A stretch of DNA of 62,483 nucleotides from a virus: the IMG/VR virus record IMGVR_UViG_3300038832_000018, positions 1 through 62,483 of that record. One strand, written 5' to 3'. A program made the position numbers and the translations under genes. The notes below the pieces were generated by a model that worked only from the letters and a program-made list of their open reading frames with translations, was not told where the DNA came from and made no database searches. Of the stretch, positions 1 through 15,593 are shown one piece after another (the first letter of the stretch is position 1; the number at the start of each line of letters is the position of its first letter).

Positions 1-55
1 TCATACCCTTTTAGATCAACTAACATTTATGAGGCTTATCGTACTATAGTCACAT
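1..55. repeat. Direct terminal repeat, left copy
   Basis: The first 55 bases are identical to bases 62429-62483. A repeat of exactly 55 bp at both contig ends is what a k-mer assembler leaves when a circular, or circularly permuted, molecule closes. It therefore marks completeness rather than a biological terminal repeat. Joining the ends places the terL start codon 9 nt downstream of the stop codon of the T9SS-type gene at 36-1325. Confidence 0.95.
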
Positions 56-1325
56 ACCCGCTGATGACATAGGAGCTCCCCGCCATAGAGCACTGCAGTT
101 GATAGTTGTATACATCGCTAGGGACATAGTATTCGTCACCACCCAACCAAATATCGTTGGGGTCTTCACTTTCCCAAACCACATCGCCATATCGAGAGTA
201 AACCCGCAACACCCATGTGAGCCAGCAAGACTCGTTGGTTTCAGCCCCCCAAACATCGTTCAGCCCGTCGTTGTCTGGGGTGAAAGCGTTTGGCAGATAA
301 ATAGGGCACTCAGGAATCGGCTCTAGGCACGGGAGCCCTGTGTCGCACTCTACACCGACCAGGTCATATTCATAGGTGGATACGGTGTCATATACATATT
401 CTGTGGATAGTACAGTGTCAAGTATATAGACATAGGTTGTGTCGTATATATACTGATCCACCCATGCTGTGTCATATACATAGTAGGGTACGTAGATTGT
501 ATCTGTAAGATACTCAGTTAGATAGAGCGTATCAGTGGAGTATATATAGGTGGTGTCATAGAAATACCAGTTGATCGCAACAGGTATCGTGTCATACTCA
601 TAAATGACTACGGTGTCTGGCGGCAGGTCTACATAGACCGTGTCGCAGACGGCCTCTGGGATCGGGTCGCCACATGGGCCCACAATCACCCAGTTGTCTA
701 AGAAATTGTCGTCATCATATATGCCGCAACAAGGAGGGGTGATACCCCCACCAAGGCTCCCCACTTCTGCCCACCCTCCGTTGTCAGCGTACATAGTGGG
801 GCCGTAACTGATCTGCCAGATTACTGCCTGTATACTCAGGTCCTGATCTAGCCAGAAGTCAAATGCATTCAGCAGATTGGAGTAAAGGCTGTTGCTGGAA
901 GCCTGATAGAAGTCCCCCAAGGGGAACGTAATTGTATCTCCAGCATAGTACGGGGGGTCTACGTCGTAGTCCGCCCACACGTCCAGGTTGGTCCAGTTGC
1001 TCGACTCCACCGAGGTCGTGGGAGAATATATCCATCCAGGGTGGTTGCTATCGTCTGGCGTGCTCAACCCCCAGGGAAAGTCCCACCCCTGGTTCATGGC
1101 GTTGCAATCTACATCTAGGGCCTGAAACCCAAACTGCACCTCTGCTATGCCCGTTGGGCCAGCCGTCCCCCCGCAGCTCTGAGTGTTGTTGAACGCCACC
1201 GTAATGGTGCCTTCGACTACGTCAAACTCTAAAATCTCTAGGTCACACTGAGCATGTAACGAAAGAGGGAAGTACAGTAGTAAGAGAAGCCCTCTTAAAA
1301 CTCGTCTGGGTGACCTATGTCGCAT
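36..1325 (-). CDS. Secreted T9SS type B cargo protein (gliding motility-associated C-terminal domain)
   Basis: 429 residues. A signal peptide is visible: basic MRHRSPRRVLR, then a leucine-rich core, then SLHA before Gln26. The middle part is beta-rich. Residues ~230-325 form an unusual low-complexity linker dominated by Tyr, Asp, Thr and Val with recurrent YDT and DT-Y-V units. The last ~90 residues (340-429) begin LPNAFTPDNDGLNDVW and contain VYSRYGDVVWES, the hallmark of the CHU_C/TIGR04131 type B sorting domain that directs Bacteroidota proteins through the type IX secretion system. It lies immediately upstream of terL across the circular junction and overlaps the preceding gene by 31 nt, so it is co-transcribed with packaging genes. 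I infer export by the host to the surface or medium; whether it ends in virions is unknown. Confidence 0.85.
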   Translation of the reverse strand: MRHRSPRRVLRGLLLLLYFPLSLHAQCDLEILEFDVVEGTITVAFNNTQSCGGTAGPTGIAEVQFGFQALDVDCNAMNQGWDFPWGLSTPDDSNHPGWIYSPTTSVESSNWTNLDVWADYDVDPPYYAGDTITFPLGDFYQASSNSLYSNLLNAFDFWLDQDLSIQAVIWQISYGPTMYADNGGWAEVGSLGGGITPPCCGIYDDDNFLDNWVIVGPCGDPIPEAVCDTVYVDLPPDTVVIYEYDTIPVAINWYFYDTTYIYSTDTLYLTEYLTDTIYVPYYVYDTAWVDQYIYDTTYVYILDTVLSTEYVYDTVSTYEYDLVGVECDTGLPCLEPIPECPIYLPNAFTPDNDGLNDVWGAETNESCWLTWVLRVYSRYGDVVWESEDPNDIWLGGDEYYVPSDVYNYQLQCSMAGSSYVISGYVTIVR

Positions 1326-6982: not shown

Positions 6983-7144
6983 TGTTGACGCTTTTTAGGC
7001 AAAAGGGCGAGAAGATCGCAGTCAGGGGATTATGTATATATACGCACGGTGCCGCGCCCAAACCGAACTCAACGCGCACGACCCCCCACCCCTCGCTAAC
7101 TCGTTGATTCTCAGGAATTTCTGCCTTTTTACTGCGCGTGTGTG

Positions 7145-7157
7145 CGGTAGTCTGCCG
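7145..7157. promoter_or_regulatory. 13-bp palindrome copy 1
   Basis: CGGTAGTCTGCCG, first of four 13-bp palindromes of the form CGGTWNTYTACCG in the divergent gap. It has one G in place of A in the right half-site. A candidate operator for a phage DNA-binding protein. Confidence 0.5.
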
Positions 7158-7286
7158 TACCCTGTCCCTCGCCGATGGGGGTCAACCTACGACCCCCTAA
7201 GTCGCTGATTCCCAAGCCCATCCCGACAAGGGTGGCCTCGCACGCGCTGACAAAGACTCTATCAATCGCCTGTGCGTAGCGCCTTG

Positions 7287-7299
7287 CGGTAGTTTACCG
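7287..7299. promoter_or_regulatory. 13-bp palindrome copy 2
   Basis: CGGTAGTTTACCG, with half-sites CGGTA/TACCG around a 3-bp centre. It lies 39 bp from copy 3, close to four helical turns, which would put bound proteins on the same DNA face. Confidence 0.55.
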
Positions 7300-7325
7300 T
7301 CACTCCATTGTTGATAAATCCTCCA

Positions 7326-7338
7326 CGGTTATTTACCG
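7326..7338. promoter_or_regulatory. 13-bp palindrome copy 3
   Basis: CGGTTATTTACCG, one mismatch from the consensus. It is flanked by ACGG and CGCGT, as is copy 4 on one side. Confidence 0.5.
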
Positions 7339-7405
7339 CGTGTGCGACCCTCTCTTCGGGGCTAACTCCCTGATTCTCAGTACTTTCCGTTTGGAGTGGC
7401 GGCCA

Positions 7406-7418
7406 CGGTATTCTACCG
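7406..7418. promoter_or_regulatory. 13-bp palindrome copy 4
   Basis: CGGTATTCTACCG, with perfect CGGTA/TACCG half-sites. It is the copy nearest the rightward block, about 200 bp before its first start codon. Confidence 0.55.
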
Positions 7419-7524
7419 CGCGGGCACTGATTAAAGACTCTAATCAATCGGGGGTGCGATTGTTGAGAACTTTATCAACTTTTGTCTTTGAGAGTACGTC
7501 GGACCACCCCGATTTTCCGAACCA

Positions 7525-7590
7525 TTAGTAACTCTAAGTTTAATACACTCTCTTCATTTATGAAGAGTGTATTAAACATAGAGATACTTA
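7525..7590 (+). repeat. Intergenic hairpin element R1 (loop type A)
   Basis: First of seven related palindromic elements. It runs from TTAGTA to TACTTA. The stem includes AAGTTTAATACACTC pairing with GAGTGTATTAAACAT; a 2-nt TC bulge and TTCAT/ATGAA close on a tiny T-rich loop. The TTTAAT/ATTAAA part differs from other copies on both arms, so pairing is preserved. It ends 21 nt before the ATG at 7612, followed by a C-rich leader. Confidence 0.85.
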
Positions 7591-7611
7591 CCCCCTAAAC
7601 CCCCAACCACC

Positions 7612-8034
7612 ATGGCAAACTCCGCCACCCCCTCCAAGACCTTCTACACCCCAACCCACAAGGCCGACGGCACGAAGCTGAGCCGAGCCGAGCGGAAGGC
7701 CGCCAACAAGGCCAAGTGGGCCGCCGAGCAGGCCGCGAAGCGCAAGGCTTCAAAGTCAAAGAAGAAGACCAAAGCAAAGGCAAAGGTCAAGACTGCCGAG
7801 GTCAAGCCGTCTGCCGACCGCATGAAGCTGACCGACATCAAGCAGTGGTCGGAAGCACACCCCACACGGAAAACTATGTCAGCTCTTGACTTGTCTGATT
7901 GGATGACTCAAGGTCGGACCAAGACCGCCAAGCGCCTCGACCGCAAGGGCCGCATAGACTCACAGATGTCGAAGCGGAACAACCGCCTCGAGGTTCAGGC
8001 TCAGTACAAGGGCGGACAGCTCGCCGCCTTCTGA
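7612..8034 (+). CDS. Highly basic Lys/Ala-rich protein, first gene of the rightward block
   Basis: 140 residues. Residues ~20-70 are extremely Lys/Ala-rich (KASKSKKKTKAKAKVK), resembling nucleoid or histone H1-like tails. The C-terminal half has a short helical domain (MSALDLSDWMTQGRTKTAKRL) and a basic end. It is preceded by hairpin R1 and a C-rich leader (ACCCCCAACCACC) rather than a Shine-Dalgarno. As the first early gene and strongly cationic, a nucleic-acid-binding role is inferred; the exact function is unknown. The next gene is 95 nt away, and a tRNA-like element fills that gap. Confidence 0.75.
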   Translation: MANSATPSKTFYTPTHKADGTKLSRAERKAANKAKWAAEQAAKRKASKSKKKTKAKAKVKTAEVKPSADRMKLTDIKQWSEAHPTRKTMSALDLSDWMTQGRTKTAKRLDRKGRIDSQMSKRNNRLEVQAQYKGGQLAAF

Positions 8035-8053
8035 GCGCACGGATCCACGGACA

Positions 8054-8106
8054 AGCGTACACGGTGGCCCACATGGGCGAGGGGTTCGACTCCCCTCTGC
8101 GCTCCA
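8054..8106 (+). ncRNA. Mini tRNA-like element TLS1
   Basis: The T-arm is GAGGGG-TTCGACT-CCCCTC (8079-8097), with the canonical T-loop TTCGA. The 3' acceptor strand TGCGCT (8098-8103) pairs with AGCGTA at 8054-8059 (one G-U), or alternatively with AGCGCA at 8034-8039 over the stop codon. CCA follows at 8104-8106. Between acceptor and T-arm lie CACGGTG and a small hairpin GCCC-ACAT-GGGC, but no anticodon arm. Length and layout are wrong for a normal tRNA. Confidence 0.7.
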
Positions 8107-8129
8107 ACAAACCCCCAAACCCCACACAT

Positions 8130-8351
8130 ATGCCCCTTTCCACCCGCTTCAGCAAGCGCCAAGCCGCCTTCCTTGAGGTCGTCAACAACTACCACGGGAA
8201 CGCGCCCACGTTCAAGTTCGACCCTACCTTCGAGCGCATCACTCTGATTGAAGCACCGTCAGGCTTCCTCCGCGAGCTCATGGACGCAGACGCGTCTCTG
8301 TTTCTCAAGCGCGATGGCCTCATCGTCGAATTCCTCAACGAAAACAGCTGA
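8130..8351 (+). CDS. Hypothetical protein, 73 aa
   Basis: 73 residues: basic N-terminus MPLSTRFSKRQAAFLEVV, then a beta-rich part with RITLIEAPSGFL and a C-terminal LIVEFLNENS. The ATG at 8130 follows a C-rich leader (AACCCCCAAACCCC), the usual start context in this block. No family recognised. It is followed 13 nt later by hairpin R2. Confidence 0.65.
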   Translation: MPLSTRFSKRQAAFLEVVNNYHGNAPTFKFDPTFERITLIEAPSGFLRELMDADASLFLKRDGLIVEFLNENS

Positions 8352-8364
8352 ACCCGACTGACCC

Positions 8365-8424
8365 TTACTCACTCTAAGTATACACTCTCTTCATTTATGA
8401 AGAGTGTATACATAGAGAGAGTTA
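8365..8424 (+). repeat. Intergenic hairpin element R2 (loop type A)
   Basis: Spans TTACTC to GAGTTA. CTCTAAGTATACACTC pairs with GAGTGTATACATAGAG (the A-A mismatch typical of the family), and the outer CTC/GAG triplet differs from other copies on both arms. The TTCAT-TT-ATGAA top and the TC bulge match R1 and R3. It ends 28 nt before the ATG at 8453. Confidence 0.85.
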
Positions 8425-8452
8425 CCCCAACAGAAACCCCAACCCCAACCCC

Positions 8453-8671
8453 ATGACCCAATCCCAACGCATCGCCGCCAACATCGGCGCCCTCCGCGAG
8501 ACCACCAACAAGGCTCTCGACCTGCTCACCAAGACCGCCACGGACGCTTCCCGTGCGGAACTCGAACGACTTGAGGCCAAGCACGCTTGGCTCACCGCTG
8601 ACGGACCTGATGCGCTCCCCACGAGCGTGTGGTTCGACCTCCCGCCGAACGAGTGGTGGGACGCCAACTAA
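8453..8671 (+). CDS. Hypothetical helical protein, 72 aa
   Basis: 72 residues. It has an N-terminal amphipathic helix region (MTQSQRIAANIGALRE), a second helix of TDASRAELERLEAKHAWL type, and a C-terminal segment with VWFDLPPNEWWDAN. The start follows the leader ACCCCAACCCCAACCCC, a pure C/A repeat. The gene is set between hairpin R2 and a structured noncoding stretch. No function recognised. Confidence 0.65.
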   Translation: MTQSQRIAANIGALRETTNKALDLLTKTATDASRAELERLEAKHAWLTADGPDALPTSVWFDLPPNEWWDAN

Positions 8672-8682
8672 TCAGGCACTCA

Positions 8683-8725
8683 AGCGCACATGGTGTACAG
8701 GGGAGGTTCGATTCCTCCCTGCGCT
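8683..8725 (+). ncRNA. Mini tRNA-like element TLS2
   Basis: Acceptor AGCGCA (8683-8688) pairs perfectly with TGCGCT (8720-8725). The T-arm is GGGAGG-TTCGATT-CCTCCC (8701-8719). The linker CATGGTGTACAG contains a GG that could play the part of D-loop G18-G19. There is no D-stem or anticodon arm. The combined helix of 6+6 bp equals the 7+5 bp acceptor/T stack of a tRNA. CAA, not CCA, follows. Confidence 0.7.
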
Positions 8726-8920
8726 CAAACCATCCCGCAAGGGTGCAAGTGTCCGAATCACCGACTACGGACACCCACAGACCTAAACATCGGTGTACCC
8801 CGATACTCGTGGGGGACTTAAGCATCGAGTAGAGTAGGTGAAGCGCGTGTGACACTGACCCTCTGAGGGCAGGCGCACACCGACTCGACCCTTTAAAATG
8901 CAACCCCTAAACCCCGAACA
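8726..8920 (+). ncRNA. Structured noncoding stretch after TLS2
   Basis: No open reading frame is credible here. Successive hairpins are visible: CCC-GCAA-GGG, a GNRA-tetraloop hairpin (~8732-8745); a perfect GTGTCCG/CGGACAC stem with a 12-nt loop (8749-8774); ATCGG/CCGAT (8789-8804), overlapping an alternative pairing with the later GGGGGAC; and a nested hairpin 8825-8888 built from TCGAGT/ACTCGA, GGTG/CACC, GCGC/GCGC, CTG/CAG and CCCT/AGGG. Such density of stems suggests an RNA gene or a structured 5' leader for the small lipoprotein gene. Confidence 0.55.
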
Positions 8921-9067
8921 ATGAAACGTTCAAACTTCGCCCCTCTGCTCGTGGGCGGCATCATCCTGCTCGCCTGCCTGGTGTCCTCGTGCGCCACGAC
9001 CGAATATACTTCGAGCACCTACCGACACCATAACCACGGCGCGTGTGCCGCATACCAAAACCCCTGA
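8921..9067 (+). CDS. Small lipoprotein, 48 aa
   Basis: 48 residues, MKRSNFAPLLVGGIILLACL then VSSCATTEY. It has a basic N-region, a hydrophobic core and a lipobox LVSSC with Cys24, so a lipoprotein signal is clear; Cys24 would be lipidated, leaving a 25-residue His/Tyr-containing peptide at the membrane. The start follows a C-rich leader (AACCCCTAAACCCCGAACA). Phage early lipoproteins often alter the envelope, for example to block superinfection, but that is only inference. It ends 4 nt before the next ATG. Confidence 0.7.
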   Translation: MKRSNFAPLLVGGIILLACLVSSCATTEYTSSTYRHHNHGACAAYQNP

Positions 9068-9071
9068 AACC

Positions 9072-9461
9072 ATGACTGAACAACAACTCGGCTACATCCC
9101 TCACGAGGGTATGCCCGTGAACTTGTACATGGGTCCGATGTCACAGCGCAACTACGATGCCCTGTGGAACTACCAAAAGACGGCAGGTTCCTTCGCATCC
9201 TCGCTCATCCAAGCGTTCTGGAACGCTGACGGCAACAACCGCATCAAGTTGCTCGATGCCTTCCCGTGGCTGTTCGTCCTGCGCGAGGAAATGATCGCGG
9301 AGGCGGAGACGTGGTGGGAGGAGTACGAGGAGGAGAACAAAGTCTGCTCCACCTGCGATGGCAACGGCTCCTACCTGAGCGGCCACTACGCTGACCCCGA
9401 CTCGTACGAGGTCACCTGCCCTGACTGCGACACCTACGACCCTGACACCCGCGACCGCTGA
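9072..9461 (+). CDS. Zinc-ribbon-type protein, 129 aa
   Basis: 129 residues. It has an N-terminal region with Tyr/Met-rich segments, a helical middle (SLIQAFWNADGNN, LREEMIAEAETWWEEYEEE) and a C-terminal CSTCDGNG...CPDCD element with Cys92, Cys95, Cys116 and Cys119. This DnaJ-like CxxCxGxG pattern indicates a single zinc site. The ATG at 9072 is preferred over a GTG at 9045, which lies inside the lipoprotein gene. Function unknown; protein-protein or RNA binding is possible. Confidence 0.7.
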   Translation: MTEQQLGYIPHEGMPVNLYMGPMSQRNYDALWNYQKTAGSFASSLIQAFWNADGNNRIKLLDAFPWLFVLREEMIAEAETWWEEYEEENKVCSTCDGNGSYLSGHYADPDSYEVTCPDCDTYDPDTRDR

Positions 9462-9471
9462 AATCCAACCC

Positions 9472-9535
9472 TTAGTATCTCTTAGTATATACACTCTCTT
9501 CATTTATGAAGAGTGTATATACTAAGAGAGACTTA
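9472..9535 (+). repeat. Intergenic hairpin element R3 (loop type A)
   Basis: The longest uninterrupted copy: TCTCTTAGTATATACACTC pairs with GAGTGTATATACTAAGAGA, with a TC bulge and the TTCAT/ATGAA top. Here the internal A-A mismatch of the family is replaced by proper pairs. It ends 19 nt before the ATG at 9555. Confidence 0.85.
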
Positions 9536-9554
9536 CCCCAAACCCCAAACCACT

Positions 9555-9962
9555 ATGGCAAAGAGAGAAAGAAAGAATGACGGCTACCTCGGGAAGGTAG
9601 AGTTCTGGACCGAGCAGTTGGCTCTCGCAAAAGAGGCGGAACAGCTCGGCCTTGAGGACCACTCACGCTACCCCATCGAGCGGTGCGAAGAGAGCCTCGC
9701 CTACTTCAAGGGCAAGCGGGCGGACTACCTCGCCAAGCACGGCGAGACCTCCGAGGCCGATGTTGAATCCGCGAAGGACCGCGCCATCCGCAAGTGTCAG
9801 GAGCGCTTCGAGGGCCTGAACGAGAGCGAGCGCATGATGCTGGCCAACAAGGTCATCAAGGATGCCACAGGCATGGGCATCAGCGTGAACGAAACGATGG
9901 CCTTCCTCAAGGACGCGGAGGTCATGAGCGACACCGAACTGATTCACTCCGTCACCTTTTAG
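9555..9962 (+). CDS. Hypothetical helical protein, 135 aa
   Basis: 135 residues, mostly helical and charged, starting MAKRERKNDGYLGKVEFW. It has a central ESLAYFKGKRADYL segment and a C-terminal region around NKVIKDATGMGISVNETMAFL. The start follows hairpin R3 and the leader ACCCCAAACCCCAAACCACT. The TAG stop lies inside hairpin R4. No known domain recognised. Confidence 0.7.
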   Translation: MAKRERKNDGYLGKVEFWTEQLALAKEAEQLGLEDHSRYPIERCEESLAYFKGKRADYLAKHGETSEADVESAKDRAIRKCQERFEGLNESERMMLANKVIKDATGMGISVNETMAFLKDAEVMSDTELIHSVTF

Positions 9963-10014
9963 ACACTCTAATAATACTCTGAACAAAGTGAAGAGTATTA
10001 TATAGAGAGTCTTA
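9959..10014 (+). repeat. Intergenic hairpin element R4 (loop type B)
   Basis: Spans TTAGAC to GTCTTA and overlaps the preceding stop codon. CTCTAATAATACTCT pairs with AGAGTATTATATAGAG. The loop GAACAAAGTGA replaces the TTCAT/ATGAA top of R1-R3; its GA...GA flanks could form tandem sheared G-A pairs under AC/GT. The outer AGAC/GTCT covaries with AGAT/ATCT in R5 and R6. It ends 18 nt before the ATG at 10033. Confidence 0.85.
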
Positions 10015-10032
10015 CCCCAAACCCCAACCCCA

Positions 10033-10767
10033 ATGTCAAAAGTTCCATCTCGAATTGCATGGCATGACGGCAAAGTTCTGCACGTCATCCGCCTCGGCAA
10101 GACCACCAACGCAAAGATTGCACGCCCCACAGACAAGGTGTTGCAGACCTACCACTTCGACCTTCGGCAGTTGGCCCTCGTGCGGTCACACCTCGACGGC
10201 AAGCGCAAGATTCCGATGTCGGATTTCTTCGACCTCGATGCCGCCAACTGCATGGACTGCCCGCTCTCAAGCAACAGCGGCAACGGCAAGTGTTACACAC
10301 ACAAGTACATGCAGTTCAGCGGGTTCGTGTCCATGCTCAAGTCCCTGTGCAACGAGGACATCCACGAAGGTTTGGATGACGTGCACCGATTGGGTATCAA
10401 GCTGATGGCCGAACGTGCGGACTTCATCCGCTTCGGTACATACGGTGAGCCATCGCTACTCCCCATCGACCTTGTGGGCGACATCGTGGTGGCAGGGCAA
10501 TGCAAGTGGACGGGGTACACACACCAGGCGCGCAAGCCTTGGGCGCAAGACTACTCCGCCTACTTCATGGCTTCGGCCCACTCTGACAAAGACGCCGCAT
10601 CGATTACGGGGTGGCGGGCCTTCGTCTGCGTCGAGCCTGACGACACCTCCACGGGTGTGCAATGCCCTGCATCCAAGGAACTGAGCGTATCCAACTGCTC
10701 CACCTGCGGGCTGTGCTCAGGGATCTTGGGCAAGGGCAAGAAGAACATCAAAATCAATATGCACTGA
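10033..10767 (+). CDS. Cysteine-motif phage protein, 244 aa
   Basis: 244 residues. Conserved-looking blocks are CMDCP (Cys73, Cys76) with Cys87, IRFGTYGEPSLLP, KWTGYTHQARKPWAQ, and a C-terminal CPASKE...CSTCGLCSG cluster. The cysteines could hold one or two metal or Fe-S sites. I recall similar proteins with the GYTHQ block in many marine phages, all of unknown function. The start follows hairpin R4 and a C-rich leader. The next short gene begins 1 nt after its stop. Confidence 0.75.
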   Translation: MSKVPSRIAWHDGKVLHVIRLGKTTNAKIARPTDKVLQTYHFDLRQLALVRSHLDGKRKIPMSDFFDLDAANCMDCPLSSNSGNGKCYTHKYMQFSGFVSMLKSLCNEDIHEGLDDVHRLGIKLMAERADFIRFGTYGEPSLLPIDLVGDIVVAGQCKWTGYTHQARKPWAQDYSAYFMASAHSDKDAASITGWRAFVCVEPDDTSTGVQCPASKELSVSNCSTCGLCSGILGKGKKNIKINMH

Positions 10768-10768
10768 C

Positions 10769-10840
10769 ATGCCAAAAGCAGAACTCATCAAGGCGCTCGA
10801 CGGCGTTCCAGAACACATCCCGCTGTACGTTATGCTCTGA
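10769..10840 (+). CDS. Possible 23-aa peptide
   Basis: An ATG 1 nt after the previous stop opens a 23-codon frame, MPKAELIKALDGVPEHIPLY plus three residues, ending 4 nt before hairpin R5. Position and spacing fit a coupled small gene, but the length gives little statistical support. No function suggested. Confidence 0.35.
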   Translation: MPKAELIKALDGVPEHIPLYVML

Positions 10841-10844
10841 ACCA

Positions 10845-10903
10845 TTAGATACTCTATAGATATACTCTGAACATAGTGAAGAGTATATCGATAGAGAATC
10901 TTA
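10845..10903 (+). repeat. Intergenic hairpin element R5 (loop type B)
   Basis: TTAGAT to ATCTTA. CTCTATAGATATACTCT pairs with AGAGTATATCGATAGAG (TA versus CG is the only internal break). The loop is GAACATAGTGA. It ends 15 nt before the ATG at 10919, after a GAAACCCTGACCCCA leader. Confidence 0.85.
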
Positions 10904-10918
10904 GAAACCCTGACCCCA

Positions 10919-11632
10919 ATGATTGACCTCAAGAAATCCCCCCGCACCATGGAACTCCCTCCGAACCCCCTCCGTACCCTGTACCGCCGCCGCTGTAGCG
11001 TGACGGGTGAAGGCATGAACTCTGGTTGGCTCTTCGAAGACGACCACGACACCATCAAGTACAAGCGTGACGTGGTCCGCGTCATCAAAGATTGCGCCCC
11101 CAACTACGGCCTCAATGTCGAGGGCCGTTCGGACGACGACATCCTGCAAGCCGCATTCGAACTCGACATCTGCTATTGGACCGAGTGGGAGGAGGAGATT
11201 GGTCCCGACGACGAGTGCTACACCCTGCACGGGGTGACCTTGCACACGGAAGCGGACCGCAAAGCCTACCGCAACAACCTCCCCTGCTCTGACGTGGAGC
11301 GGGCCGCAGTAGTCCTGGCGGACCGTGGTTACCACGTGTGGGTCATCGAAGGTGAGGGCGAGGAGTACGGGGATCCACGACTGTGGACAGGCAAGCAGTT
11401 CCTCTGCATCGGAAATATTTGGGACCACAAACTGACGGAGGCCATTGCAGTCGAGGTTGGCAAGCGCGAGTTGAAGCACTACTCCGACCACTACCTCGCC
11501 GACCCTGACAAGTTCTTGGGCACTGCGATGAACCCCAATCGGTGGCGCTTCATCGGATGGGAGAGCATCCACAAGACCCTCCCCGAACTCATGCCCAAAG
11601 AGTACGGCGCTGAAGACATCCCATTTGACTGA
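10919..11632 (+). CDS. Hypothetical protein, 237 aa
   Basis: 237 residues, acidic, no signal or membrane segments. An N-terminal region with PPNPLRTLYRRRCS is followed by an alpha/beta body (YKRDVVRVIKDCAPNYGLNV), a C-rich middle and a C-terminal GWESIHKTLPELMPKEYGAE segment. The start follows hairpin R5. I do not recognise a family. Position among early small genes suggests a host-takeover function, by inference only. Confidence 0.7.
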   Translation: MIDLKKSPRTMELPPNPLRTLYRRRCSVTGEGMNSGWLFEDDHDTIKYKRDVVRVIKDCAPNYGLNVEGRSDDDILQAAFELDICYWTEWEEEIGPDDECYTLHGVTLHTEADRKAYRNNLPCSDVERAAVVLADRGYHVWVIEGEGEEYGDPRLWTGKQFLCIGNIWDHKLTEAIAVEVGKRELKHYSDHYLADPDKFLGTAMNPNRWRFIGWESIHKTLPELMPKEYGAEDIPFD

Positions 11633-11638
11633 ACCCCA

Positions 11639-11697
11639 TTAGATACTCTAAGTATATACTCTGAACAAAGTGAAGAGTATATACATAGAGAATCTTA
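11639..11697 (+). repeat. Intergenic hairpin element R6 (loop type B)
   Basis: TTAGAT to ATCTTA, 6 nt after the stop at 11632. CTCTAAGTATATACTCT pairs with AGAGTATATACATAGAG, with the typical A-A mismatch. The loop is GAACAAAGTGA. It ends 13 nt before the ATG at 11711 (leader AACCCCTAACCCC). Confidence 0.87.
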
Positions 11698-11710
11698 AAC
11701 CCCTAACCCC

Positions 11711-12043
11711 ATGAAGTTTTACAACGTCGACCCCAAGAAAGGTATCACCGACCACCTGAAGGATGCACTCGAAGACAGCATGAGACTCGAACGCATCTTG
11801 AATTACTGCGCCGAGGTTGACATCAACCCGTATGCAGAGAACCCGCTCGATGCGAGTTCCTCGACCCCCTTCATCGAGTTCCTGCCCGACACCAACCTCG
11901 CGAACGTTTCGTGGCGAGAGGAAGACATGATGACCGACGACTACACCTCCCCGTCATGGCTGATGGGGAACATCCAAGAGGCGTTGCAATCCATCATCGC
12001 ACTCTACCTCGAACACGACAAGCAAGCCACCATCGACCTCTAA
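11711..12043 (+). CDS. Hypothetical acidic protein, 110 aa
   Basis: 110 residues, acidic and helical: MKFYNVDPKKGITDHLKDAL, then a segment with SMRLERILNYCAEVDINP and a C-terminal helix IQEALQSIIALYLEHDKQA. It follows hairpin R6 and is 3 nt from the next gene. No family recognised. Confidence 0.65.
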   Translation: MKFYNVDPKKGITDHLKDALEDSMRLERILNYCAEVDINPYAENPLDASSSTPFIEFLPDTNLANVSWREEDMMTDDYTSPSWLMGNIQEALQSIIALYLEHDKQATIDL

Positions 12044-12046
12044 GCT

Positions 12047-12265
12047 ATGGACTCATACGGAATCTACGTGATGGCTACCATCATCGAACACCACTGCGGA
12101 TTGCACGGAGATGCAATGGACCTGCATTGGGAGTTTTCTGCCGCACATTATGCCAACTTCTACCGCTCCCGTTGGGATAGCGAGGACCGCAGTCAGGCCG
12201 ACTGCATTGAAACATACGTCAAACACCAATCTGAGAACGACCCCGATTGGTTAAACCCTGAGTAA
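12047..12265 (+). CDS. Hypothetical protein, 72 aa
   Basis: 72 residues with an aromatic, His-rich middle (IIEHHCGLHGDAMDLHWEF) and an acidic end. It starts 3 nt after the previous stop, and its stop shares a base with the next ATG (ATGATT context), so coupling is likely. No family recognised. Confidence 0.6.
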   Translation: MDSYGIYVMATIIEHHCGLHGDAMDLHWEFSAAHYANFYRSRWDSEDRSQADCIETYVKHQSENDPDWLNPE

Positions 12266-12726
12266 TGATTGACAGACAAGTAAACGCTAAGGTCATCTAT
12301 CCTACCCTTGGCTACACCGTACTCAGTACGGGACAGGATATCCGCCGAGACGAGAACGTCGAGGTCATCGTTCACGTTGGACACGCCGCCCATGGAAGGG
12401 CGTGGTTCGAGTTCTACGACAGGAAGACAGAGGGGGAGGCGTACCACGCCGAGGGAGAACTCGAGGTCGAGGACGGCAAGCTCGTGGGGTACGATGGTGT
12501 CGGAGAACTCCCGACTGTGGTGATGGACATCGCACGGGACAAGTTCGGTGTCGACGTGTCGGAGGTGTACCACGATGACGGACAGCCCAACGAATACGAG
12601 ATGTTCATGTACTGGGTGGACGGCAAGTGCTTCCACACCATGCATGACGCCCGACAATACATCCACTCCCTCAAGCTCGATCTTGACGCGAACCGCGCCA
12701 AGTTCAAGGAGATTCAGAGGAAGTGA
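12265..12726 (+). CDS. Hypothetical beta-rich protein, 153 aa
   Basis: 153 residues, beginning MIDRQVNAKVIYPTLGYTVL. It has beta-strand-like stretches (VEVIVHVGHAAHGRAWFEF, EGELEVEDGKLVGY) and a C-terminal helix rich in Lys. No signal peptide, no cysteine motif. It starts on the last base of the upstream gene. Its stop is followed by a ~260-nt structured noncoding stretch. Function unknown. Confidence 0.65.
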   Translation: MIDRQVNAKVIYPTLGYTVLSTGQDIRRDENVEVIVHVGHAAHGRAWFEFYDRKTEGEAYHAEGELEVEDGKLVGYDGVGELPTVVMDIARDKFGVDVSEVYHDDGQPNEYEMFMYWVDGKCFHTMHDARQYIHSLKLDLDANRAKFKEIQRK

Positions 12727-12988
12727 ACGTGGTGGGGACCACGGGGAAGAGGGTGAGAGCGCACCACCCGTCATCGAATACATCGTGCGCCGAAGGGGTG
12801 AGAGGCCCCTACATGATGCGAATGGTTAATGAGGGTTCGATTCCCTCCCGCATCACCTCCTGTTCAGAGGTGTGAATTGGTATAGGGGTAGCCTATGCCC
12901 GACCTCACCACAGAAGGGAACAGGTAGCGGAACGCCTCATCCGATAAAACGACAGGGGGAAGTCGTCGAACTGCAGTCGGCGCACACT
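12727..12988 (+). ncRNA. Structured noncoding stretch upstream of tRNA-Arg
   Basis: No credible gene. In order: hairpin GTGGT-GGGG-ACCAC (~12729-12742); GCGCAC/GTGCGC (~12759-12788) around a 20-nt loop; GGGG/CCCC (~12795-12809); mini tRNA-like element TLS3; then a three-tier structure in which CCTGTTC (12859-12865) pairs with GAACAGG (12918-12924), GAGGT with ACCTC, and GGTATAGG with CCTATGCC; and ACGAC/GTCGT (~12949-12966). Probably an RNA gene cluster or a long structured leader. Confidence 0.6.
12814..12855 (+). ncRNA. Mini tRNA-like element TLS3
   Basis: Acceptor TGATGCG (12814-12820) pairs perfectly with CGCATCA (12849-12855). The T-arm is GAGGG-TTCGATT-CCCTC (12831-12847). The 10-nt linker AATGGTTAAT looks like a D-loop (TGGTTAA) without a D-stem. 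There is no anticodon arm. CCT follows the acceptor. The acceptor sequence differs from TLS1 and TLS2 yet remains fully paired. Confidence 0.72.
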
Positions 12989-13061
12989 GCCCACGTAGCT
13001 CAGGGGATAGAGCAACTGCCTTCTAAGCAGTCGGTCGCAGGTTCGAATCCTGCCGTGGGTA
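12989..13061 (+). tRNA. tRNA-Arg (anticodon UCU)
   Basis: A normal cloverleaf: acceptor GCCCACG (12989-12995) with CGTGGGT (13054-13060, G1-U72 wobble); D-arm GCTC/GAGC with AGGGGATA loop; anticodon stem ACTGC/GCAGT with loop CTTCTAA giving TCT at 13022-13024; a CGGTC variable region; T-arm GCAGG-TTCGAAT-CCTGC; and discriminator A. The 3' CCA is not encoded. It would read AGA and AGG codons. It stands 23 nt before the next gene. Confidence 0.95.
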
Positions 13062-13084
13062 CTAACCCCCAAACACACACAATC

Positions 13085-13213
13085 ATGGACAAAGAAATCA
13101 TCGACGAACTCTGCAACAAAGTAGCAGACATCAAGTACGAACTACAACAGGTCCTTGACGTCCTGTACAGATTACAAAGCGAAGAAGAGAACACATGGAC
13201 AACGAAATTATAA
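13085..13213 (+). CDS. Small coiled-coil protein, 42 aa
   Basis: 42 residues, MDKEIIDELCNKVADIKYEL followed by heptad-like leucines and an acidic end. The ATG at 13085 is preferred because any longer frame would run through the tRNA gene. It begins after ACCCCCAAACACACACAATC, the block's C-rich leader, and overlaps the next gene by 19 nt. Function unknown. Confidence 0.55.
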   Translation: MDKEIIDELCNKVADIKYELQQVLDVLYRLQSEEENTWTTKL

Positions 13214-13677
13214 AGCGCCTTGAGTGGCATGACGGCGGCGATGGTGTCGATTACGAGTTCTGGAAAGACCCTGATACAGGAAAGCTGTACAAGGTGCCAA
13301 TCCAAATCGAGCGGCTGTTCGACCAGGCAGAAGCAGTGGATAGAGTCTCAAAATTCTTCTACATGAATCATTTTGACAAGACCGTACTGGAGACGGTACA
13401 GAAAGACATCGAAGCCGTCGAGCGGGTCGGCAGTATGCGGGGACTGATTGGATGGTGGTCTGTCACAGACGCCCACGGTACGGGCCTCGCAGGTGAAGAC
13501 CAATGGAACTTCGTCACGGATAGCTACCCCAAGTTCGTGGAGTGGGTGCTGAAGCAGTACATGGAGAACGAGCCTCACCCGATGTACACCGACCGCAAAA
13601 TTCACTGGAGAGACATCGATGACTACGAGGTCATGACCGCATACATCGAAGAGATGGGAAGCATCGACAACATTTGA
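13195..13677 (+). CDS. Hypothetical protein, 160 aa
   Basis: 160 residues, acidic, with many Trp and Tyr, starting MDNEIIKRLEWHDGGDGVDY. It has a helical centre (FDKTVLETVQKDIEAVERVG) and a C-terminal MTAYIEEMGSIDNI. The N-terminal MDNEIIK repeats the MDKEII start of the upstream small protein, but that may be chance. No domain recognised. Confidence 0.6.
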   Translation: MDNEIIKRLEWHDGGDGVDYEFWKDPDTGKLYKVPIQIERLFDQAEAVDRVSKFFYMNHFDKTVLETVQKDIEAVERVGSMRGLIGWWSVTDAHGTGLAGEDQWNFVTDSYPKFVEWVLKQYMENEPHPMYTDRKIHWRDIDDYEVMTAYIEEMGSIDNI

Positions 13678-13688
13678 CACACACAATC

Positions 13689-14036
13689 ATGAGTTATTAC
13701 TACACCAAACCCGACCAGCCGCTGAACGCGTACAACCAACTATGTTGCATCCAAGGCATCACCGATGACCTCGATGCTCTGAAGCCCCTGCTCGAAGAGC
13801 AGTTCGATATCCGCGTCAAGATGGCTGACGAATATTTCACTCTGCCCACCCCTGGGGAACCAGACACGGGGGGCAGGCGTGACATCCTCTTCTATGTCCA
13901 CGACGACGACACCATGAAGTTCGCCGTACCTCGATTGCAGTTCGGCATCAGGTGGTGGGAGGACATCCTCGGCAACGGCCACGGCCCGACGATTCCGCAG
14001 GAGATTCTTGACAAATACCCAAACACATGGACATGA
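13689..14036 (+). CDS. Hypothetical protein, 115 aa
   Basis: 115 residues, starting MSYYYTKPDQPLNAYNQLCC, with a segment DDLDALKPLLEEQFDIRVKM and a C-terminal Trp-containing region. Start at 13689, after ACACACAATC, preferred to an in-frame TTG that overlaps the upstream stop. It ends overlapping the next gene by 10 nt. No family recognised. Confidence 0.6.
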   Translation: MSYYYTKPDQPLNAYNQLCCIQGITDDLDALKPLLEEQFDIRVKMADEYFTLPTPGEPDTGGRRDILFYVHDDDTMKFAVPRLQFGIRWWEDILGNGHGPTIPQEILDKYPNTWT

Positions 14037-14314
14037 GTTTCCTTACACGCACCCCAGCACTCGACCAACACGTATCTATTCGATTGAATCTGCGTGCTGA
14101 GCAAATCTCCGACAGGGTCAAGCGCGAAAGCGAGCGACACGGAGAGAACTACAAAGACCTGGACGGCCCCCCGATGCGCTGTCTGGCGAACATGTTTGTC
14201 AATCACGCAGACACTGAAGTCATCACCGCGTGGTTGGAGAGGCAGGACACCGCGTTCCGTGACTACGTCCCGCGTATGGTGTTCGAAATCCTGAAGGACA
14301 ACACGTACGAATGA
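14027..14314 (+). CDS. Hypothetical protein, 95 aa
   Basis: 95 residues, charged and helical: MDMSFLTRTPALDQHVSIRL, then a basic helix (EQISDRVKRESERHGENYKD) and a C-terminal region with FRDYVPRMVFEILKD. An in-frame Met two codons later is equally possible as start. It ends in an ATGA overlap with the next gene. Function unknown. Confidence 0.6.
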   Translation: MDMSFLTRTPALDQHVSIRLNLRAEQISDRVKRESERHGENYKDLDGPPMRCLANMFVNHADTEVITAWLERQDTAFRDYVPRMVFEILKDNTYE

Positions 14315-14472
14315 CGCAAGCATACCTCGACGAACTACAGGCTCGCATTGACGAGCTGTATGATAGGCTTCTCGATGATCCTGAGTGCAGGGCCACAGCA
14401 ATCCTGCTGTCTGCGTGCATCGACAACTACAATGCGAAACTCAAACTCCTACAGAAACCATGCGCCAACTAA
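14311..14472 (+). CDS. Small helical protein, 53 aa, coupled to the sigma factor gene
   Basis: 53 residues, entirely helical: MTQAYLDELQARIDELYDRL then a Cys/Ala-rich second helix. It starts in an ATGA overlap with the gene before and overlaps the sigma factor start by 13 nt. Its position makes it a candidate partner or anti-sigma-type modulator of the sigma factor, which is inference from location only. Confidence 0.6.
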   Translation: MTQAYLDELQARIDELYDRLLDDPECRATAILLSACIDNYNAKLKLLQKPCAN

Positions 14473-15329
14473 AAATCACACAACAAGTCACACGTAGAGA
14501 CGCTGAGTCGCTCAACAAGTACCTGACTGACATCTCACCGATTGGACTGATTGACGCACAGCGAGAGGCAGAGCTGGCCTATCGCATCCGTGTGCACGGA
14601 GACAAGCAAGCCATGGACGAGTTGGTCAAGGCTAATCTGCGCTTTGTGGTCTCCGTTGCCAAGCAGTATCAGGGGCAGGGATTGAGCCTGCAAGACCTCA
14701 TCAACGAAGGCAACCTCGGGCTCATTAAAGCGGCCACTCGCTTCGACGAGACCAAGGGGTTTAAGTTCATCTCGTATGCGGTCTGGTGGATTCGACAGCA
14801 CATCTTGCAGGGGATCAGCACGCAGGGTCGTACGGTGCGTCTGCCACAGAACAAGATTGCTACGGTGGTCAAGATTCGCAACGCCACGTCAGACCTCATG
14901 CAAGAGAACGAACGGCCCCCTACGATTTACGAGTTGGCCGAACACCTTGGCGTTTCTGTAAAGGAGATTGAGCTATGCATCTCAAACACAGGGGCAGTAC
15001 CGTCCCTGGACGCGCCATTGTCCTCCGACAGCTCTTCGAGTCCATTCATCGACATCGTCCCTGATTCCGAGGGCGACCACCCCGACCAACTCATGGACCT
15101 GATGTCCATGCGACAAGACATAGCTGAAGCGCTCAAGGTGTGCAGTCCGCGCGAGCAGAAAATCCTGTGCATGTGTTACGGCATTGGCACAGAACACCCA
15201 CACACGCTGGATGAAATCGCCGAGCACTTCGACGTCACTCGTGAACGCGTCCGACAAATCAAAGACAAAGCCATCAGACGACTGCGCCGTCCGATGATTA
15301 ACAATATGCTCCGAAGCCATTTGGGTTAG
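14460..15329 (+). CDS. Phage-encoded RNA polymerase sigma factor, sigma-70 family
   Basis: 289 residues with all core regions: region 1.2 (~12-45), 2.1-2.4 (~46-115, with ANLRFVVSVAKQYQGQGLSL and FKFISYAVWWIRQ), 3 (~130-180) and 4.2 (~230-289, TLDEIAEHFDVTRERVRQIK). There is no region 1.1. The start MRQLKIT and overall length match the Bacteroidota primary sigma very closely, so capture from a host rpoD-like gene is likely. Region 2.4/3.0 (HILQGISTQGRTVRLPQNK) differs from what I recall of host RpoD. It should redirect host RNA polymerase to phage promoters. ATG at 14460 is chosen because the longer frame runs through the upstream gene. Its stop lies inside hairpin R7. Confidence 0.92.
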   Translation: MRQLKITQQVTRRDAESLNKYLTDISPIGLIDAQREAELAYRIRVHGDKQAMDELVKANLRFVVSVAKQYQGQGLSLQDLINEGNLGLIKAATRFDETKGFKFISYAVWWIRQHILQGISTQGRTVRLPQNKIATVVKIRNATSDLMQENERPPTIYELAEHLGVSVKEIELCISNTGAVPSLDAPLSSDSSSSPFIDIVPDSEGDHPDQLMDLMSMRQDIAEALKVCSPREQKILCMCYGIGTEHPHTLDEIAEHFDVTRERVRQIKDKAIRRLRRPMINNMLRSHLG

Positions 15330-15384
15330 ACACTCTAAGTATATACTATGAACATAGTGAATAGTATATACATAGAGAGTCTTA
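15326..15384 (+). repeat. Intergenic hairpin element R7 (loop type B variant)
   Basis: TTAGAC to GTCTTA, overlapping the sigma stop codon. CTCTAAGTATATACTAT pairs with ATAGTATATACATAGAG: the C-to-A change in the inner stem (ACTAT for ACTCT) is matched by ATAGT for AGAGT. The loop is GAACATAGTGA. Unlike other copies, no C-rich leader follows; the ATG at 15385 abuts the element. Confidence 0.85.
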
Positions 15385-15567
15385 ATGATAGAGACCATGA
15401 CACTGAAAGAACAACGAGACCTGCAAGACAAACATCGAATCATGACGGCATTGATAAACAACAAGGGCCATCGACGTGCGGCCAGCATCGATCTCTGCAT
15501 GAGCGAACGCACCCTGTACCGCTACCTCCGCCGCCTTGATTTGCAAAAATTTGCCAAGAGCACTTGA
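15385..15567 (+). CDS. Small Fis/NtrC-type helix-turn-helix protein
   Basis: 60 residues. The C-terminal two-thirds reads HRRAASIDLCMSERTLYRYL then RRLDL, the pattern of the Fis-type HTH (A-x-x-L-x-[I/M]-S-x-R-T-L-Y-R-x-L). The N-terminus is a short charged helix. As a 60-residue stand-alone HTH it would bind palindromic DNA as a dimer. It begins directly at hairpin R7 and follows the sigma gene, so it may regulate early genes or itself; target unknown. An alternative Met lies four codons in. Confidence 0.75.
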   Translation: MIETMTLKEQRDLQDKHRIMTALINNKGHRRAASIDLCMSERTLYRYLRRLDLQKFAKST

Positions 15568-15593
15568 CAAACCACCAACACCCCGTATCTTTA
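15564..15593 (+). promoter_or_regulatory. Bacteroidota-type promoter, TTG-N19-TATCTTTA
   Basis: TTG at 15564-15566, exactly 19 nt, then TATCTTTA at 15586-15593, one base short of the TTG-N19-TAnnTTTG consensus. The downstream ATG is at 15617, after a CCCTAACCCC leader. The promoter overlaps the end of the HTH gene and would separate transcription of the following small-gene run. Confidence 0.72.

Follow-up and report, generated by a model that had tools for sequence, protein, structure and literature searches.

The early RNA of phage T7 is cut by RNase III at five sites between early genes (PMC4858673), the textbook case of an early message cut at hairpins, and the promoters of the N4 virion RNA polymerase, which also lie before early genes, are DNA hairpins that have a loop of 3 nt and a sheared G-A pair (PMC4496689). 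Here we describe hairpins before the early genes of a virus record of 62,483 bases, the whole of which we refer to as the window. Seven hairpins (R1 to R7) of 56-66 nt each lie just 5´ of an early gene on the plus strand, and R4 to R7 carry an apex, here termed the cap, that recurs in unrelated phage lineages. Such capped sense-strand leader hairpins are a previously uncatalogued, widespread phage family whose new part is the defining cap; they are unrelated in sequence to the T7 sites and are found in phages with and without Shine-Dalgarno sequences.

A first-pass annotation had proposed seven covarying elements in the window, and inverted repeats, folds and shuffles agree on this set, all on the plus strand: R1 (7525-7590, inverted repeat 7527-7588), R2 (8365-8424, inverted repeat 8367-8422), R3 (9472-9535, inverted repeat 9474-9533), R4 (9959-10014), R5 (10845-10903, inverted repeat 10847-10901), R6 (11639-11697, inverted repeat 11641-11695) and R7 (15326-15384, inverted repeat 15328-15382). 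R4, which contains a bulge, is visible in the fold and the alignment and is not among the six inverted-repeat calls. Compared with dinucleotide shuffles, the folding of R1 to R7 gave z values of -5.7 to -7.9, with 0/200 shuffles as good for each hairpin, and the cap and frame patterns would be expected by chance 0.00-0.02 times in the window. By direct count over R1 to R7 and their six counterparts in a related contig (L008), the outer arms follow one frame: a T-A pair, a T-T mismatch, pairs, a mismatch and further pairs. The T-T mismatch adjoins the hairpin end in 7/7 copies, and the A-A mismatch noted in the first pass is present in six of the seven; R3 and its L008 counterpart instead have an A-G mismatch one position out. 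The outer triplets GTA/TAC, CTC/GAG, GAC/GTC and GAT/ATC all pair, as had been claimed, and five different complementary triplets are found across the 13 hairpins. Since both sides of the triplet change at counterpart sites, from GTA/TAC in the window to GAG/CTC in L008 for R1 and from GAC/GTC to GAT/ATC for R7, this is genuine covariation between two phages. The inner stem covaries as well, the closing stem CTAT/ATAG of R7 being a compensatory change.

The annotation also distinguished two loop classes, and both apices are present. The R1 to R3 apex (CTTCATTTATGAAG), which reads TTCATTTATGAA with a two-base bulge, differs from the R4 to R7 cap, which is GAACAAAGTGA in R4 and R6 and GAACATAGTGA in R5 and R7. 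The division is not fixed by site, however, because the L008 orthologue of R2 has the same outer arms topped by the GAAC cap GAACAGAGTGA, indicating that the two apex classes are interchangeable. The sequence GAACAWAGTGA given for the R4 to R7 loop is correct but is better read as GA/GA tandem mismatches, an AC/GU pair of base pairs and a triloop; the apex is thus CTCT-GA-AC-AWA-GT-GA-AGAG, which as RNA forms a helix, a tandem G-A/A-G internal loop, two pairs and a triloop. The cap is not palindromic as double-stranded DNA and so gives the hairpin a strand. A covariance model built on cap and upper stem gave R4 to R7 plus-strand scores of 43-48 bits and minus-strand scores of 13-17 bits (R4, 42.9 and 17.0 bits; R6, 48.3 bits), and R1 to R3 scores of 20-21 bits.

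Scanned for the 19-nt top of the hairpin, viral contigs gave 117 stretches, and the family cap, GA-AC-RWA-GT-GA, was found in ~100 viral loci, including unrelated phage lineages. Bases outside the 19-nt top pair in 134/152 viral matches compared to 11/152 when shuffled. Among these hairpins, 59 are mutually <80% identical. GAAC and GTGA are each present in 47/47 non-redundant hairpins and the middle is nearly always R-W-A, while the stems beneath have no common sequence across phages. The search pattern held four pairs constant in one or more hairpins of each contig, whereas the other pairs, and hairpins found later in the same contig, were free; with this limit, the pair cells of the 47 stems are paired in 88% of cases against 62.5% for shuffled stems, and 191 cells are changed on both sides against 65.5. 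The covariation score of 0.651 (0.180 shuffled) was reached by 0/500 shuffles, and slid versions gave at most 0.241. Variant searches that allowed other closing pairs, or the inner pair GAGC...GCGA, identified further contigs with long stems, including records of up to 110 kb, and apices of other sequence in the same contigs retain the G-A pairs around an inner GT/AC or AT/AT. At the gathering threshold, Rfam matched only tRNA in the window and in 11 hairpin loci, and the weak matches below it were confined to plastid 3´ UTR and miRNA hairpins, such that the hairpins resemble no Rfam family. We did not find a description of capped hairpins in the open-access literature.

Stem shape was measured on 73 non-redundant hairpins (viral loci L005-L121 plus the window). 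The median length is 23 pairs (range 16-29), and the first seven pairs are Watson-Crick in all 73. Beyond them, single mismatches (A-A, A-G, G-A, T-T) or one-base bulges recur, with one to three in nearly every stem. G-U accounts for 21/1635 pairs (1.3%) and is absent from the first 14 positions. This scarcity is unusual for an RNA helix selected for pairing alone, and could come from correction of palindromes at the DNA level, from strict selection of perfect helices or from a role as DNA.

The phages that carry the hairpin are diverse. Terminase and portal are common to the window and six records (G001, G003, G004, G007, G024 and G047), and the hairpin records G009/G028, G043, G037, G008, G002, G040, G042, G026 and G029 share few or no proteins with this group. 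One locus, L032, has a terminase related to those of two Pelagibacter phages, HTVC027P and HTVC023P. These two, DSL-LC04 and ct52p938, all cultured or named relatives, have no such tandem-GA hairpin in the 42-45 kb examined of each, and BLAST of the hairpin against phage records returned short chance-level matches only. The G002 phage encodes a T7-type RNA polymerase and has hairpins upstream of the polymerase gene, as in T7.

The gene context of the hairpins, taken from our own gene caller, is highly regular. The hairpin points toward the called downstream gene in 106/107 cases, lies inside a called gene in 7/117, and usually sits after the stop codon of one gene and before the ribosome-binding region of the next, with a median of 7 nt from the previous same-strand stop and ~30 nt to the start. 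The gene-junction placement reported for the window holds: R4 and R7 overlap a stop codon, R2, R3, R5 and R6 follow one by 3-13 nt, and the next ATG follows every copy by 0-28 nt. In whole records all core copies are on one strand except in L022, a contig of 9,750 bases that is a near-perfect inverted self-duplication, probably an assembly artefact, and the sole record with hairpins on both strands. Nineteen copies are first in their operon, the gene upstream being divergent and 300 nt or more away; 16/19 of these are within 60 nt of the start, with 390-1020 nt of room, and the element thus belongs to the leader of the following gene rather than to the end of the preceding one. The sense orientation of the cap, the lack of a T-run, the first-of-operon copies that hug the start codon and the location of R1 3´ of a promoter-like site together give good support to the first-pass view that the elements are RNA and that simple termination is unlikely. 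Translation control was also raised there; exerted by hiding the ribosome-binding site, it is unlikely as a general role, since in lineages with Shine-Dalgarno sequences the site is 3´ of the hairpin in most cases. In the Bacteroidota lineage, which lacks them, a short A/C/T-rich leader follows the hairpin; in a few first-of-operon copies (e.g. L019) the Shine-Dalgarno sequence is within the outermost stem. In L019, L020, L029, L092, L018 and L039, the leader of the first gene has additional stable hairpins, in tandem 5´ of the capped hairpin, and may as a whole form a larger structured RNA.

A relative, L240/G047, has the same gene order along the early block and no hairpin was found in it. 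The first-pass annotation had named homologous phages without the pairing as grounds for abandoning its proposal. L240 is indeed hairpin-free, but Bacteroidota promoters stand at homologous places, each directly in front of the homologue of a gene that in the window follows R1, R4 or R5 (L240 positions 6072, 7946 and 9511), a pattern that favors a replaceable role over an absence of function. A promoter and a hairpin would both supply a new 5´ end near the start codon. Because a fresh 5´ end tens of nucleotides before the start is the simplest common denominator of the two, and T7 does likewise, we favor processing. The pair formed by the window and L240, with hairpins or promoters before homologous genes, makes the swapping of modes of 5´-end formation testable.

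We therefore propose endonucleolytic processing and protection of the products as a way in which each gene of a polycistronic early message could obtain its own 5´ end, a proposal that we consider about as likely as not. The early genes would be transcribed together from a promoter before R1, and each nascent hairpin would fold into a helix of ~20-23 bp with a capped apex and small, fixed interruptions. An endonuclease specific for double strands, with host RNase III as the simplest candidate, could then cut the helix to yield a 5´ end ~15-45 nt before each downstream start codon, and the capped remnant might shield a 3´ or 5´ end. Co-transcription, cleavage, the nature of the nuclease and the stabilizing effect are the inferred parts of this proposal. 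RNase III processing is the leading but unproven role, and we do not claim membership among T7-type sites. The likeness to these sites lies in interrupted hairpins of ~45-60 nt at early-gene junctions and before the first gene, with ~30 nt from their end to the start codon and no U-run, and in ~20 bp of double-stranded RNA (median 23 bp here) with one or more internal interruptions. As the T7 yardstick we used R0.3, R0.5, R1, R1.1 and R1.3; these sites are interrupted hairpins between early genes, with one before the first gene, and lie ~30-35 nt before the start where measured. If processing is correct, the covariance model and simple criteria, which serve to find hairpin phages, would also predict the 5´ ends of their early genes.

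Several observations weigh against RNase III processing. The T7 sites have a common stem (AAGGTC...GGCCTT), an asymmetric internal loop, G-U pairs and no fixed apex; the capped hairpins, in contrast, have stems that share nothing across phages, mostly single mismatches or 1-nt bulges and almost no G-U, although the shared stem and asymmetric loop mark T7's own sites and not RNase III substrates generally. The cap GAAC-RWA-GTGA is invariant over these unrelated stems even though RNase III needs no fixed apex, and R1 to R3 lack the tandem-GA cap altogether. A search of 30 hairpin records found no RNase III gene, so a phage-encoded enzyme was rejected and the host enzyme would have to cut.

The invariance of the cap hints that the apex, too, is recognized, and poses the question of which factor would recognize a tandem G-A cap conserved above stems that change throughout. 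More tentatively than for processing, we suggest that the tandem-GA capped hairpin could be a new and widely shared phage RNA signal, its apex read by a specific factor, that marks the starts of single early genes in unrelated lineages and in hosts with different translation signals. A phage sigma factor was rejected as the reader, being encoded by only 3/30 records. A related but more doubtful alternative is that a dedicated protein, of the phage or a conserved host factor, binds the tandem G-A apex to control translation, mRNA decay or elongation, with no need for cleavage. Such a protein would account for a cap that is fixed in 47 non-redundant hairpins while the stems vary freely, and for an apex in which the inner two pairs covary (AC/GT, GC/GC, GT/AC, AT/AT) and the G-A pairs are kept. 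Nearest-neighbour rules give the cap no particular stability as an RNA loop, so that stability alone does not explain it, a point that also speaks for binding. However, the apex can be swapped at the orthologous R2 (TTCATTTATGAA in the window, GAACAGAGTGA in L008), and comparison at the sequence level of 16 joined records and the window identified no protein family common to all hairpin phages.

That the hairpin is a passive leader element, which insulates neighboring genes or protects the 5´ side of the mRNA with no specific cleavage or ligand, is improbable. The location directly 5´ of the ribosome-binding region in most copies, the interchangeable caps and the tolerance of any stem sequence are what such an element would show, but it leaves the fixed cap, the recurrent interruptions and the scarcity of G-U unaccounted for.

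The near absence of G-U pairs would instead fit an element that acts as DNA, with the sense strand extruding or folding into a hairpin that serves as a promoter in the style of the N4 virion RNA polymerase or in replication. The hairpins also occupy places where L240 has promoters, and the caps resemble stable DNA loops, in which sheared G-A pairs, GNA triloops and TTTA are known. A sheared G-A pair is likewise found in the N4 promoter loops (PMC4496689). N4 promoters, though, have stems of 5-7 bp, are read on the template strand and need the virion RNA polymerase, whereas the stems here are 16-29 bp and the cap is on the coding strand. A T7-type polymerase domain is missing from 29/30 hairpin records, so that a promoter for a phage RNA polymerase was rejected, and none was seen in the two giant virion proteins in a search at the sequence level, of a record that may be incomplete. 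The strict position before the ribosome-binding site, even in first-of-operon copies, also speaks against a DNA element, which we consider less probable still than a passive leader.

The 19-nt top is identical to that of a dispersed cellular repeat, raising the idea that the hairpins are mobile or repetitive extragenic palindrome (REP)-like repeats with no role in expression. Matches to the top in cellular sequences are mostly TGTCA-CTCTGAACGAAGTGAAGAG-TC, found in Bacteroidota, Ignavibacteria, Chloroflexi and others, with (T)GTCA before and TC after in 73/126. Both share the tandem G-A, but the cellular element has a short stem and fixed flanks and lacks the long covarying arms: bases outside the top pair in 13/126 cellular matches against 9 shuffled, far from the viral counts. 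Viral copies, moreover, occur once per gene on a single strand with different stems within one genome. The covariance model gave two weak matches in 296 sampled genomes of one phylum and none in the other 294, making the capped hairpin largely a phage feature; with these results a cellular origin was rejected, and we hold REP-like repeats to be very unlikely. The cellular repeat itself, TGTCA-CTCTGAACNNAGTGAAGAG-TC, is present in contigs L122-L239 of several phyla, for example in more than 10 contigs of Candidatus Kapaibacterium SKW166 (JAOABA01), and a related sequence, GAGCGAAGCGAAGAATC, was absent from the open-access literature searched. Two further candidates were discarded. Integron attC sites are junction hairpins with variable stems, but their apex varies and their ends are fixed, the reverse of the capped hairpins, and the likeness was set aside on this description only. 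An element tied to its gene was rejected given that, for the gene after R4, the hairpin accompanies the orthologue in the close relative L241/L008 alone and is missing in L240 and in L242-L257. Least likely of all are intrinsic terminators or attenuators: the hairpins sit between genes, but no T-run follows the copies read, the combination of a G+C-rich stem and a T-run is missing, and hairpins also precede first genes with a divergent gene upstream.

The plus-strand early block of the window begins at 7612 with the gene after R1 (7612-8034), which encodes 140 aa with no Pfam or PHROG match. The genes after R2 (8453-8671), R3 (9555-9962) and R6 (11711-12043) are gene calls, the gene after R4 (10033-10767) has a C-terminal match to phrog_2554, and that after R5 spans 10919-11632. 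A sigma-70 family gene with regions 2, 3 and 4 (14460-15329) lies inside the hairpin operon, its stop codon being the one that overlaps R7, and is also present in G003; it is a possible switch to later operons. The gene after R7 (15385-15567) encodes 60 aa with weak similarity to HTH_8, under the curated cut-off. All of these genes are on the plus strand. A CHU_C type IX secretion domain protein (36-1325, minus strand) and a BT4734-like primase-helicase indicate a Bacteroidota host. The promoter-like site before R1 (7460-7490, plus strand) is of the Bacteroidota type, TTG-N20-TGTCTTTG, with one mismatch to TAnnTTTG under a relaxed pattern, and would put R1 within the transcribed leader, though such a site is weak alone since ~10% of random 150-nt windows in related loci hold one. 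The strict pattern was not found between R1 and 15564, where a Bacteroidota-type promoter (15564-15593, plus strand; TTGACA..TATCTTTA) starts the next operon, which is without hairpins.

Other elements were noted in the same region. Three tRNA-like mini-elements lie in gene junctions (8033-8108, 8675-8727 and 12815-12856), with an acceptor-like stem and a T-arm with a TTCGA loop and without a normal anticodon arm; ARAGORN calls none of them. L240 has a conserved counterpart of the first (7569-7626, 90%), and these elements could be decoys or RNase P/Z processing sites. Finally, the region 5´ of R1 (7095-7435) contains a repeated unit, CTAACTCnnTGATTCTCAGnACTTT, with small hairpins of type CGGTAnnnTACCG after it, and is a possible origin or operator; one such unit sits before the first promoter of L240.

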